From NCBI GenBank assembly GCA_902802355.1, contig CADCLU010000005.1, positions 1 through 64,000 on the forward strand: a DNA stretch of 64,000 bases. Reading direction: 5' to 3'. A model generated the notes under the pieces. It did not search any database, was not told the origin of the DNA, and saw only the letters and a list, made by a program, of their open reading frames with translations. Origin of the DNA: an uncultured Erysipelotrichaceae bacterium. Lineage in GTDB: Bacteria; Bacillota_I; Bacilli_A; RFN20; CAG-826. Each line of letters opens with the position of its first letter. The stretch's first letter is position 1. Shown here in pieces: positions 19,792-25,558 of this stretch. The position numbers and the translations under genes are program-made.

Positions 19792-19819
19792 AAGAAAAAG
19801 CCAGGCTATTGCCCGGCTT
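19792..19819 (-). terminator. Terminator of array member 2
   Basis: AGCCGGGC/GCCTGGCT stem with AATA loop and TTTTTC on the minus strand; overlaps the last codons of the gene. Confidence 0.75.
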
Positions 19820-20591
19820 GGCTCATATGTTCTTCCCAATCACTAGGAAGGGTAATTGAGAAATTGCTCAGCGCTTTGGAGTTGATTTCGTATGTTTGTT
19901 TTTCGTTAATTGCGCCTGATGACCTACTGCTCTCAAGTTTTGCGTACGACAGGAGGTAGTTGTCGTAAGCCATTTTGAAATACTGTTTCCCGTTGAGGTT
20001 GCCTTCATAGGTGGTCTGCGACATCTCGATGGTGAGATTGCCATCCCCTTTTGAGTAATACTTCGTCGAGAATGGATAGCTTTCCTCAAACATCTCGGCG
20101 TAATACAGAGGATCGCGAACGTCTAGGAACGCTTCAAGAGGAAGCATGAGGATGGAAGGAACTATGGTTCCGCATGAGGAATACTCTTCATCCTCAATGG
20201 CATAGACTTCCGTATAGCTTTCCTTGACCGTTATGTTGTTGACCTCAGAATAAACCACTTTTCCATATTTCTCATTGTCCACCGCATACATGGTGAGCTC
20301 GCTTTTGACCTCGTTGTAGTTTACGGATGCCGAAAGGTAAAAGCTGCCTTTTTCATCAGCCTGATAAAGGAGGTTCGATTGATATTTGAATTCCAAAGCA
20401 TCTGCATTGGTTTGAACTATGGAGGTGGATATGGTCGCTTCGTAATTATTGACTTCTTTTGTTTTTACGGAGATGGCTTGCTCAAGCTCTTTGACTCTTA
20501 CTGTGTCACTCGTAATGTCTTGGCCGTAATTTTGGCAAGAAGAAAGAACGGCAGTCGCTAATAAAGGCAGTATCGCGTGTTTCTTTTTCAT
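19806..20591 (-). CDS. Lipoprotein of a five-member tandem family (member 2)
   Basis: 261 residues. Its signal peptide and first mature residues (MKKKHAILPLLA, LSSCQNYGQ) are almost the same as in member 1, so these two are the youngest duplicates. Landmarks: LEQAISVKTKEVNNYEA, TKYYSKGDGNLTIEMS, ITLPSDWEEHM. The upstream regions of members 1 and 2 are also identical over ~40 bp. The middle region has diverged strongly, which hints at selection for different ligands or at antigenic-type variation. Function unknown. Confidence 0.8.
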   Translation of the reverse strand: MKKKHAILPLLATAVLSSCQNYGQDITSDTVRVKELEQAISVKTKEVNNYEATISTSIVQTNADALEFKYQSNLLYQADEKGSFYLSASVNYNEVKSELTMYAVDNEKYGKVVYSEVNNITVKESYTEVYAIEDEEYSSCGTIVPSILMLPLEAFLDVRDPLYYAEMFEESYPFSTKYYSKGDGNLTIEMSQTTYEGNLNGKQYFKMAYDNYLLSYAKLESSRSSGAINEKQTYEINSKALSNFSITLPSDWEEHMSQAGQ

Positions 20592-20699: not shown

Positions 20700-21485
20700 T
20701 CAAGCAACCGAAGAAGATTCTTTAATACGCTCTTCCCAATCATCAGGGAGGTTAACTGAGAAATCGTCTAGTTGTTTGAAGTTGATTTCGTAAGCTCCTT
20801 TTGAGGTGCTGGAGCCAACATGCCACCCGTCTTTTTCGATTTTTGCATATGACAGGAGATTGTTATCGTAAGTCATTCTGCAATAAAACTTGGTGTCCGG
20901 ACTCCCTTTGTATTCTGTTCTAGACATCTCGATGGTGAAATTGCCATCCCCTTTTGAGTAATACTTCGTCGGATCGGGGTGGTAATCGACAAGTCTATCT
21001 ACATAAAGAGAGGGATCCCGAATGGAGTCATACTCTCTAAGAGAACTCGAAAAATACGATGGAAGCAAAGATAGCGGTGTGACTTCATAGGTTACGCCAC
21101 GGACCTTGATCGATTGAGTTCTTTTGCCTATGACACGATAATCTTCATAAACCACTGTGTCGTATTTTGAGTCATTCACAACATAATAGACGCTCTCGCT
21201 TTTTACTTCGTTGATTTCCAAAGATGCAAAGACAAAAAAGTTGCCTTTTTCGTCAACACGGTAAATAAGATCCGAGTTGTAATGCTCAAAGGTCCCATAT
21301 TCGGTTTTAGTGACATCTGCGACGACATGAACCTCATAGCTCTTGATATAGTTCATTTTCCAAGAGATATCTTTCTCAAGTTCGTTGATTCGAGTTTTGT
21401 CGCCCGTGATCTCTTGACCATAGTTTTGGCAAGAGGAGAGGACGGTCATGGCTAATAACGGCAATATCGCATGTTTCTTTTTCAT
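20700..21485 (-). CDS. Lipoprotein of a five-member tandem family (member 1)
   Basis: 261 residues; Cys19 lipobox LSSCQNYGQ. The N-terminal helix reads INELEKDISWKMNYIKSYEV, the core TKYYSKGDGNFTIEMS, the end VNLPDDWEERI. Length equals member 2 and the overall identity is visibly higher to it than to the others. GAAGG ribosome site 8 nt before the ATG. Function unknown. Confidence 0.8.
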   Translation of the reverse strand: MKKKHAILPLLAMTVLSSCQNYGQEITGDKTRINELEKDISWKMNYIKSYEVHVVADVTKTEYGTFEHYNSDLIYRVDEKGNFFVFASLEINEVKSESVYYVVNDSKYDTVVYEDYRVIGKRTQSIKVRGVTYEVTPLSLLPSYFSSSLREYDSIRDPSLYVDRLVDYHPDPTKYYSKGDGNFTIEMSRTEYKGSPDTKFYCRMTYDNNLLSYAKIEKDGWHVGSSTSKGAYEINFKQLDDFSVNLPDDWEERIKESSSVA

Positions 21486-22844: not shown

Positions 22845-24113
22845 TTATTTCCTTTCATAGACCTTACGGCCATCAATGTATTTGGCTACTAAGAAGCTTT
22901 CGCTTGCATTGTACATCAATCTCTCAAGCCTGTCCTCGATTCCGAACTTCATGCTTGATGGATCGCCATTGACGTCATCGATGACGAGGATGTCGGCGTC
23001 ATACCCTTCCATGAAGGAACCGGCTTTGCCAAAATATGAGGCTCCACCCAAGGTGCCGATATAGAGGGCTTCCTTGGCATTAAGAGGTTTGTAATTATTC
23101 CTTCCTCCGTGGTTGATGACCTTGGAGAGCTGGATGGCGAGCTTGAGATTGGCGAAGAGATTGAGGGTGCTTCCCCCTGCCACGTCCGAGCCGATGCCGA
23201 CATGCATTCCATAGTCGAGATACTTCCTGACAGGCATGATTCCGCCTGTGGTGACGTTGGTGTTGCTCTCTGGGCAATGGACGAGATAGACGTCTTTCTC
23301 TTTGAGAGTCTTCATCTCCTCATCGGTGACGTAGATGCAATGTGCCATGACGGAATGCTCGAGAAGGCCCACTCTGTCGTAGGTGTCCGTGTATGATTTG
23401 GCATCCGGGCAAAGCTCTTTGACGAAGGCGATCTCTTCCTCATTCTCATCTAGATGAGACTGCGAGGCCACGCCGTATTCTTTCCTCACTTCCCCTAGCA
23501 TCTTCATCATCGGATCGGTGCAGCTGACGGTGAATCTTGGGGTGATGCATGGTTTGACGTGCTTGAAATCTTTTAAGCGTTTGATGAGCTCGATGTTGTC
23601 TTTCCTTGCTCCTTCAACCGTCTGGGAAATGTAGTCAGGGCAATTCCTATCCATGTCGACGATGCCGACATAGGCGTCGATGCCTGCTTTCTCAAGGAGT
23701 TCGCAAAGGATATATGTTCCTTCGAGATGGATGGTCGCGAAGATGACCGCTTTGGTGGTGAAACTCTTCTTTAGGCAATCGACGAAGACTTTGTAGGCCT
23801 TTTTGGCGTGTTTCTCGTCTTTGAAGGCCGCTTCCCTAGGGAAGGTATATTTGTCGAGCCACTCAAGAAGGGTGGCATCCATGAGGGTACCTTTATAGGC
23901 GAACTGGGAGGCATGGAGATGGAGATCGGCCATACCTGGGAGAATGAGTTTGCCAGTGTAATCGATGAGCTTCTTTTTCTTTAACTCTTTCGGGAGGGAT
24001 TTCATGGCTTTGACGATCTTGCCGTCTTTGACATGGAGATAGCCGTTATGGATGCTTACGAATTCGCTGAGGCTCTTGTTATAGGCGATATCGCCTTTGA
24101 CGATGTACTCCAT
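22845..24113 (-). CDS. guaD: Guanine deaminase (amidohydrolase family)
   Basis: Deaminates guanine to xanthine. 422 residues of the GuaD/TRZ-ATZ branch: PGMADLHLHASQFAYKG (metal-binding HxH and the guanine-binding Q/F), RNCPDY, CITPRFTVSCTDPMM, QSHLDENEEE (metal His), HCIYVTDEE, and GIGSDVAGGSTL (metal Asp). All four metal ligand positions are present. The start codon has a GAAAGGAG site, and 17 nt upstream of that begins the T-run of a terminator hairpin, so expression appears to depend on readthrough (see the leader). Confidence 0.92.
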   Translation of the reverse strand: MEYIVKGDIAYNKSLSEFVSIHNGYLHVKDGKIVKAMKSLPKELKKKKLIDYTGKLILPGMADLHLHASQFAYKGTLMDATLLEWLDKYTFPREAAFKDEKHAKKAYKVFVDCLKKSFTTKAVIFATIHLEGTYILCELLEKAGIDAYVGIVDMDRNCPDYISQTVEGARKDNIELIKRLKDFKHVKPCITPRFTVSCTDPMMKMLGEVRKEYGVASQSHLDENEEEIAFVKELCPDAKSYTDTYDRVGLLEHSVMAHCIYVTDEEMKTLKEKDVYLVHCPESNTNVTTGGIMPVRKYLDYGMHVGIGSDVAGGSTLNLFANLKLAIQLSKVINHGGRNNYKPLNAKEALYIGTLGGASYFGKAGSFMEGYDADILVIDDVNGDPSSMKFGIEDRLERLMYNASESFLVAKYIDGRKVYERK

Positions 24114-24130
24114 TCTCTCTCCTTTCTGAT

Positions 24131-24155
24131 AGAAAAAGCCCCGCTGAAAGGGGCT
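24131..24155 (-). terminator. Terminator hairpin inside the guaD leader (putative attenuator)
   Basis: AGCCCC/GGGGCT stem and TTTTTC run ending only 17 nt before the guaD ATG. There is no room for a promoter between them. Confidence 0.7.
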
Positions 24156-24244
24156 CTTAGGTCATATGTTCCTAGAGGATTCTCCTGAGTTATTCATGAG
24201 TGATTTGACCCTAGAGAATTCCATGTGATTACTCTAGCACAGGA
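24156..24244 (-). promoter_or_regulatory. Candidate riboswitch or other cis-regulatory leader of guaD
   Basis: Read on the minus strand, a CTAGAG segment (24232-24237) can pair with either of two CTCTAGG copies (24210-24216 and 24171-24177). The second copy can also pair with CCTAAGAG (24154-24161), which touches the terminator stem. Such mutually exclusive pairings upstream of a terminator and a purine gene suggest a switch. It does not match the purine-riboswitch consensus as I know it. Confidence 0.4.
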
Positions 24245-24250
24245 TATCTT

Positions 24251-24279
24251 AATATCCTATTTGTTTTTCATCTTCTCAA
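24251..24279 (-). promoter_or_regulatory. Promoter for the guaD leader
   Basis: -35 TTGAGA (24274-24279) overlapping the stop of the upstream gene and -10 GATATT (24251-24256) with a 17-bp spacer. A transcript from here would carry ~130 nt of leader. Confidence 0.45.
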
Positions 24280-24845
24280 GAAGCCTTGGACCATCCTGGA
24301 AGGAGGTCAGCGGAGTTGACCAGATTTACGGTTTTATCTTCGTCGACCCAATAATAGATATCGAAGTAACCCGGTGGATAGCTGAACTCACCGCTAAAGT
24401 AAAAGTCTTCATCGGAATCGCGATCTAGCGAGTACACTAGAAGAATCCTGATAGAACCGCTTCCCGGAATGAAAAATCTGGAGTCGAGATGCAGTTTTGC
24501 CTCTTTGCTATAGAAGTATTTATACCAGCCGTCGTCCCCTTTTTTGTATTCATAAAAACAATCCTTATTGCGATCGGTGATCGTGTAAATTCGCTCATAG
24601 TCATCACAGACTTCGTTTTTGGCGAGGAACATGTACTTTTCATTCAAACGGTGGTCACCAAACACCTGGCTTCTGTCATATAGGCCGAAATAAGCGGTCA
24701 AATCGACACCATCATCGAGTTCAAAGCGAACCGCGTTCGAATCTTGAAGATCTTTTATCGTGAAACGAGGCGAATCGTCACTAGGCGGACAAGAGGTCAA
24801 CAAAGGCAAAAACGCCAGCAAAAGGAGTCTGGATTTCTTTTTCAT
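24276..24845 (-). CDS. Lipoprotein, paralog of its upstream neighbour
   Basis: 189 residues; signal peptide with lipobox LTSC and a PPSDD start of the mature chain. Shares with the next gene the MKKKS-LLLL signal, FxLxDGxDLT-YxGLYxxS, KFMFLxxNx, YERIYxxxx, SEAKxHxDSxxF and a C-terminal Y-W-DEDKTVxL pattern, so the two are tandem duplicates. It lacks the Ser/Glu-rich tail of its partner. Its ATG overlaps the partner's TGA (ATGA), so the pair is translationally coupled. Function unknown. Confidence 0.8.
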   Translation of the reverse strand: MKKKSRLLLLAFLPLLTSCPPSDDSPRFTIKDLQDSNAVRFELDDGVDLTAYFGLYDRSQVFGDHRLNEKYMFLAKNEVCDDYERIYTITDRNKDCFYEYKKGDDGWYKYFYSKEAKLHLDSRFFIPGSGSIRILLVYSLDRDSDEDFYFSGEFSYPPGYFDIYYWVDEDKTVNLVNSADLLPGWSKAS

Positions 24846-25558
24846 GCCACTGCCTCACTTGACTCTAATGGTTCCTCGGTAGAAAGGAGTTCTTCTTCGC
24901 TAGACTCTAAAGACTCCTCGGTAGAAATAGTATCTTCCTCGCTAGAAGAAGCTTGTGATTCTATAGAGGACTCTTCTGAAGCGGAATAGTTTGGAAGTCT
25001 TTCACGGTAGGTCGAGACATAGACGGTTTGGTCTTCAGCGATGTAATAGTAGAAAGGCTGATAATCAACGTATCCGCTATAATAGAAAAGAGATTTGCTG
25101 TCATAGAAATTTTTCTCGGGGCTGTATCCCTCTACCTGCGCCAAAACAACCGTAAAAACATCGTTATCACTATTGAAGTATTTGGAGTCTATATGTATTT
25201 TGGCCTCTGAGGTATAAGTGTATCCATTTCCGTTTCTCGGCTCTTTCCAATAGTGCTGGGAATTAGGCGTTGGGACCTCATAAATGCGTTCATATCGCAC
25301 GGATGATTGATATGGGTCCTTGGCGTTTGCGACGAGGAACATGAATTTATCGGAAGTTGAGCTGCCGCGGTAACCCAATGATTTGTTATAGAGACCATAA
25401 GAAAGCGTCAGATCAAGTCCATCCTCCAAATCAAACCAAAGCATTTTGTTGTAATAAGGAAACTCTTCTACATCGAAAAGAGGGCCATCAAGACTTGGTG
25501 GACACGAAGTCAATAAAGGCAAAAGCAGCAATAACAGCAAATTGGATTTCTTTTTCAT
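24842..25558 (-). CDS. Lipoprotein with Ser/Glu-rich C-terminal repeat
   Basis: 238 residues, LTSC lipobox at Cys19. The body matches the following gene; the last ~45 residues are a low-complexity tail of S, E and L built from a 14-residue repeat encoded by two 42-bp tandem units (24861-24944). Such tails usually act as flexible spacers or adhesion regions. No known domain. The upstream region carries AAAGTAGCATAATG, similar to the -10 block of the five-lipoprotein array. Confidence 0.8.
   Translation of the reverse strand: MKKKSNLLLLLLLPLLTSCPPSLDGPLFDVEEFPYYNKMLWFDLEDGLDLTLSYGLYNKSLGYRGSSTSDKFMFLVANAKDPYQSSVRYERIYEVPTPNSQHYWKEPRNGNGYTYTSEAKIHIDSKYFNSDNDVFTVVLAQVEGYSPEKNFYDSKSLFYYSGYVDYQPFYYYIAEDQTVYVSTYRERLPNYSASEESSIESQASSSEEDTISTEESLESSEEELLSTEEPLESSEAVA
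24861..24944. repeat. Two 42-bp tandem repeats within a lipoprotein gene
   Basis: Copies at 24861-24902 and 24903-24944 begin GACTCTAA and share CTCCTCGGTAGAAA and TCTTC-TCGCTAGA. The length keeps the reading frame, so copy number could vary without breaking the gene. Confidence 0.7.

Follow-up and report, generated by a model that had tools for sequence, protein, structure and literature searches.

The guaD locus and its relatives

The window, a 64,000-nt stretch of contig CADCLU010000005.1 from an uncultured Erysipelotrichaceae bacterium, carries on its minus strand a guanine deaminase gene, guaD, preceded by a co-directional lipoprotein-like ORF. The genes and the features of the 162 nt of intergenic DNA between them are as follows.

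22845–24113, minus strand: guaD, guanine deaminase (422 aa); best-fitting family TIGR02967, 336.5 bits, below the curated cut-off of 375.4
24119–24125, minus strand: Shine-Dalgarno sequence AAAGGAG of guaD, invariant in seven species
24133–24158, minus strand: intrinsic terminator AAGAGCCCC-TTTCAGC-GGGGCTTTTT, 97% of cells paired across seven species
24154–24164, minus strand: possible antiterminator 3' arm TGACCTAAGAG, formed by the stop codon and terminator foot of the leader and overlapping the terminator 5' arm
24162–24224, minus strand: leader ORF of 20 codons plus a TGA stop (MEFSRVKSLMNNSGESSRNI), predicted leaderless, predicted start site at 24224
24171–24177 and 24210–24216, minus strand: two CTCTAGG copies, motifs of the original prediction
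24206–24216, minus strand: possible antiterminator 5' arm CTCTAGGGTCA, leader codons 3–7, pairing with 24154–24164
24231–24239, minus strand: extended -10 element TGC-TAGAGT, invariant in seven species except for the N of TGN
24232–24237, minus strand: CTAGAG, motif of the original prediction, included in the extended -10 element
24241–24258, no strand assigned: inverted repeat AGGATAT-TAAG-ATATCCT, directly upstream of the -10 element, present in five species
24276–24845, minus strand: lipoprotein-like ORF, 5' neighbour of guaD

The lipoprotein-like ORF belongs to a set of tandem paralogs in the window (24276–24845, 24842–25558, 19806–20591 and 20700–21485), with the signatures MKKKS..LLTSCPPS and MKKKHAILPLLA..LSSCQNYGQ.

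Across the 37 genomes of the genus, guaD at 90–100% identity is found together with its upstream region in 7, the window's own genome included, and the leader is present in those same 7 genomes with a close intact guaD; no copy of the leader was found away from guaD in the 37 genomes. The named relatives are metagenome-assembled genomes from the rumen that carry the label Bacilli, Bacillales or Erysipelotrichaceae. We compared seven species, namely that of the window and L003–L008, of which L003 is a 99% twin of the window species, and the seven leaders represent only about three independent lineages. The gene 5' of guaD varies among these species, whereas the leader stays. Its alignment contains the conserved blocks TGTGNTAGAGTAWTCAYATG, TCTARGGTYAA and ATRACCTWAGAGCCCC, followed by the terminator and the Shine-Dalgarno sequence.

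A conserved terminator separates the leader from guaD

The terminator, in the sense orientation for guaD, is built of a stem pairing 24150–24158 with 24134–24142 and a T run reaching 24133, and when folded alone has a free energy of about -13 kcal/mol. It lies between the leader and guaD in all seven congeneric species. The original prediction of a terminator in front of guaD is thus borne out, although the distance to the ATG (24113) is 19 nt rather than 17. Its further argument, that no room is left for a promoter behind the hairpin, also holds: the gap is taken up by the Shine-Dalgarno sequence and contains no conserved -10-like sequence in the seven species. We therefore reject a promoter at this position, and guaD would depend on read-through, so that the term attenuator appears well chosen for a conserved sense-strand terminator of this kind. 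The Shine-Dalgarno sequence of guaD is strong, 3' of the terminator and outside its cover.

The putative leader promoter has the spacing of a leaderless start

The element TGC-TAGAGT sits exactly 6 nt 5' of the ATG at 24224, a spacing that matches the leaderless promoters of this genome and would place the normal start site at the A of that ATG. There is no evident -35 element for this promoter, and TAGAGT, which shares 4 of 6 positions with TATAAT, would make a weaker -10 box. We scanned 1.05 of the 1.09 Mb of the genome (the window, L039–L058 and L071–L110) for elements that match TATAAT at 5 or more of 6 positions and lie 5–8 nt before a start. Such leaderless-type elements precede 16 of 1244 candidate gene starts compared with 1 of 5770 internal ATGs (Fisher P about 1e-11). 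The extended -10 elements form a sharp peak 6–7 nt before the ATG, in at least 16 genes, which makes leaderless initiation a likely feature of this genome; one of the matches, TGTGCTAGAATTAGGCA-ATG, is nearly identical to the leader promoter. The CTAGAG arm of the original prediction can most simply be read as part of a promoter -10 box.

A short ORF with a fixed distance to the terminator

The ORF that begins at this ATG has 20 codons in the window, L003 and L008 and 16 codons in L004–L007 (MIYSKVKTSKNKSEHQ and variants). The difference is a 12-nt in-frame gap that was placed by a frame-blind DNA alignment. Despite the unequal lengths, the stop codon, TGA in one species and TAA in six, is always 4 nt before AGAGCCCC. 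The substitution pattern scores +47 in the ORF frame versus -73 and -37 in the other two (column-permutation P 0.004, drawn from about three lineages), and we hold with moderate confidence that the ORF is under coding selection.

The predicted peptide is tiny and hydrophilic, and its C-terminus varies. The leader ORFs contain neither a run of a single amino acid nor a conserved C-terminal peptide motif, and the run of regulatory codons typical of an amino-acid-sensing leader peptide is likewise missing from them. Serine, encoded throughout by codons of the TCN type, accounts for 5/19, 3/15 and 6/19 residues after the start Met without forming a run (P 0.006, 0.07 and 0.001, uncorrected and not independent); we regard this modest enrichment as too little to name Ser-tRNA as the sensed species. 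The 1.05 of 1.09 Mb scanned contained no second leaderless ORF of 60 codons or fewer that is followed by a terminator. Elsewhere, on the plus strand at L056:2663, lies a candidate leaderless short ORF of 26 codons without a terminator, the stop of which adjoins a downstream start, a possible case of translational coupling.

Alternative readings of the leader

The original prediction proposed a riboswitch-type element with a purine ligand, in which CTAGAG would pair with either of two CTCTAGG copies. The motifs are present as described, and both copies are able to pair with CCTAAGAG at the terminator foot, but the comparison of guaD leaders, suggested at the time as a check, did not confirm a conserved structure. 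Of the seven species, only that of the window and L003 have the second copy, which the other five (L004–L008) lack, and the first base of CTAGAG is C, A or G depending on the species. Throughout the alignment the TAGAG side is invariant while its pairing partner drifts, a pattern to be expected from a promoter element but not from one arm of a helix. The CTAGAG:CTCTAG hairpin, with a conserved 5' arm, a drifting 3' arm and a second copy peculiar to two near-identical species, was accordingly discarded. An Rfam scan of the leader, also suggested with the prediction, yielded nothing at the gathering level and chance matches only at E up to 10. The purine riboswitch covariance model (RF00167) found no match in the window at either level, in agreement with the earlier remark that no known purine riboswitch consensus is visible; with the same library it is detected in L015 and L016. 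The leader fold barely beats its shuffles (z -1.59 and -1.82), four species have a 12-nt deletion in the supposed core, and no conserved aptamer-like structure with covariation, of the kind collected in Rfam, was found in the leader. A metabolite-binding riboswitch of an undescribed class would suit a terminator that precedes a purine gene, a TAGAG:CTCTA hairpin that can form in six species and an upstream inverted repeat kept with two different sequences. Yet with TAGAGT accounted for as a -10 box we consider it very unlikely, and the leader is probably not a riboswitch of this type.

Our main rival reading is a stand-alone tiny gene, for a small peptide or a small RNA, equipped with its own terminator, guaD being expressed from constant, unregulated leak-through. 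The invariance of the terminator fits this view, as does the fact that stop-to-terminator distances of 0–5 nt are common at ordinary gene ends in this genome. The character of the peptide, tiny, hydrophilic and with a variable C-terminus, speaks against it, as do the restriction of the leader to guaD within the genus and the want of any other promoter for guaD, and we rate this reading as possible but unlikely. Somewhat less probable still, in our estimate, is classical leader-peptide attenuation, with the position of the ribosome selecting between the terminator and an antiterminator that pairs CTCTARGGTYA with TRACCTWAGAG. The placement of the two arms, one in leader codons 3–7 and the other spanning the stop codon and the foot of the terminator, is suggestive, and the overlap of the 3' arm with the terminator 5' arm would make the pairing exclusive with the full terminator stem. 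Moreover, 86% of the arm cells are paired compared with 12–47% in slid controls, and L005 and L007 have a perfect 9 bp. However, the covariation of the antiterminator is not above that of shuffles, its arms carry mismatches in most species, other folds are preferred to it in L003, L004, L006 and L008, and the terminator is far nearer to the stop than in classical amino-acid attenuators, where more than 20 bp intervene (PMC4824070). In five species the inverted repeat stops 4 nt short of the -10 hexamer, on its upstream side; it could serve as an operator or represent the last hairpin formed by the upstream transcript. At the same place L005 has an unrelated sequence that forms another, 8-bp inverted repeat (shuffled P 0.0045), and L008 has none. 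Among the 37 congeners, five genomes carry the repeat at guaD and two genomes have it at a single other site each; given this near-restriction to guaD and the different repeat of L005, we reject it as the operator of a regulon. The repeat also enters a reading in which guaD is transcribed mainly from upstream, the terminator merely trims read-through, and the repeat is a protein operator or that last hairpin. The co-directional upstream gene does end 17 nt before it, but the exchange of this gene among species that keep the leader, together with the invariant -10 element, leaves this the least credible of the readings, with hardly any weight in our judgement.

Discussion

Collectively, we hold translation-responsive transcription attenuation by a leaderless leader ORF to be the best explanation for the leader of guaD, with a confidence somewhat above even. 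The sequence contains a terminator, a promoter-like element at a leaderless position, a conserved coding-like ORF and a fixed spacing between its stop and the terminator, while the transcription start, actual translation of the ORF, control by the ribosome, the sign of that control and its signal are the parts that we infer. In the proposed mechanism, transcription would start at the A of the leader ATG (24224, minus strand) and give a leaderless message, the first 16–20 codons of which would be the leader ORF, with its stop 4 nt before the terminator core. A ribosome halted at a stop codon shields about a dozen nucleotides on its downstream side, so that at the leader stop it would cover the terminator 5' arm, allowing RNA polymerase to read into guaD. 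Were the leader left untranslated, or the ribosome stalled early, the terminator would form. The output of guaD would thereby track translation of the leader ORF, and candidate signals are the general translation status, a charged tRNA such as tRNA-Ser, or an effect of the nascent peptide. As a tentative and rather unlikely extension, guaD may be governed by ribosome occupancy of a mini-ORF that lacks an amino-acid run and takes the place held by a purine riboswitch before other guaD genes of the genus; its output would then report the capacity for translation (GTP, charged tRNA or the state of the ribosomes) instead of the purine itself.

In Escherichia coli, termination dropped from about 90% to less than 10% when a stop codon was shifted from 28 bp to 5 bp ahead of a terminator, and it recovered once translation was removed (PMC4824070). 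In amino-acid attenuators, the leader stop and the terminator are separated by more than 20 bp (PMC4824070), which points to a different design for the guaD leader, nearer to the logic of pyrBI. Together, the E. coli data and the pyrBI-like design lead us to favour a model in which a translated leader gives read-through and an untranslated one gives termination. In E. coli pyrBI (pyrL), too, a translating ribosome directly blocks folding of the terminator before a nucleotide-metabolism gene, as is proposed here from sequence. Nevertheless, pyrL is a 44-codon ORF (135 bp) that contains its terminator and has pause sites read by the UTP level, whereas the guaD leader has 16–20 codons, is predicted to be leaderless and stops before the terminator.

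Several observations count against strong masking of the terminator by the ribosome. A leader of less than 100 nt may not be long enough for coupling (PMC4824070). In the present genome, 39 of 227 ordinary genes (17%) have a terminator within 4 nt of the stop, so masking may be weak here, and the uncoupling of transcription and translation in Bacillus subtilis (Johnson et al. 2020, as cited in PMC7858274) points the same way. Genome-wide, the stop-to-terminator distances are two-peaked, at 0–5 and 12–20 nt, and the many ordinary genes with terminators within 5 nt of their stops are unlike what strong masking would allow.

Attenuators with a leaderless leader ORF have been described before (PMC7298713; PMC4633059). 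Leaderless polycysteine ORFs of mycobacteria (Canestrari et al. 2020, as cited in PMC13236596; candidates in PMC4633059) and trpL of Sinorhizobium meliloti (PMC7298713) are likewise short ORFs at the 5' end of the message before the controlled gene, which in the case of trpL is reached by transcription attenuation. They carry codons for the sensed amino acid, a run of which the guaD leader lacks, and the latter further differs by its purine-degradation gene, its Bacilli host and a stop that abuts the terminator. The proposed mechanism is thus of a known kind, while its arrangement and target are new.

The control of guaD differs within the genus, with RF00167 in two congeners and the leader ORF in seven. 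The purine riboswitch precedes a distant guaD, 38% identical to that of the window type, at L015:1367–1465 and L016:1367–1466 (47.2 and 45.2 bits), and leaves no trace in the leader of the window or of its six close relatives. In L012 and L020, guaD itself looks leaderless. A single genus therefore shows a purine riboswitch, a leader ORF and a plain leaderless promoter before guaD genes, elements that may either have replaced one another or belong to different guaD lineages. The xanthine riboswitch (NMT1 motif), tied to purine-oxidation genes (PMC7373994) and on that account a natural candidate for guaD, was not matched in the Rfam scans of the leader.

Finally, the genome-wide signal of leaderless promoters should help in the annotation of start codons in this group. 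Control by leaderless leader ORFs is known mainly from actinobacterial and alphaproteobacterial genes of amino-acid metabolism. If our reading is true, the expression of a nucleobase-degrading gene in an uncultured rumen lineage of Bacilli would depend on whether a leaderless ORF ahead of it is translated.
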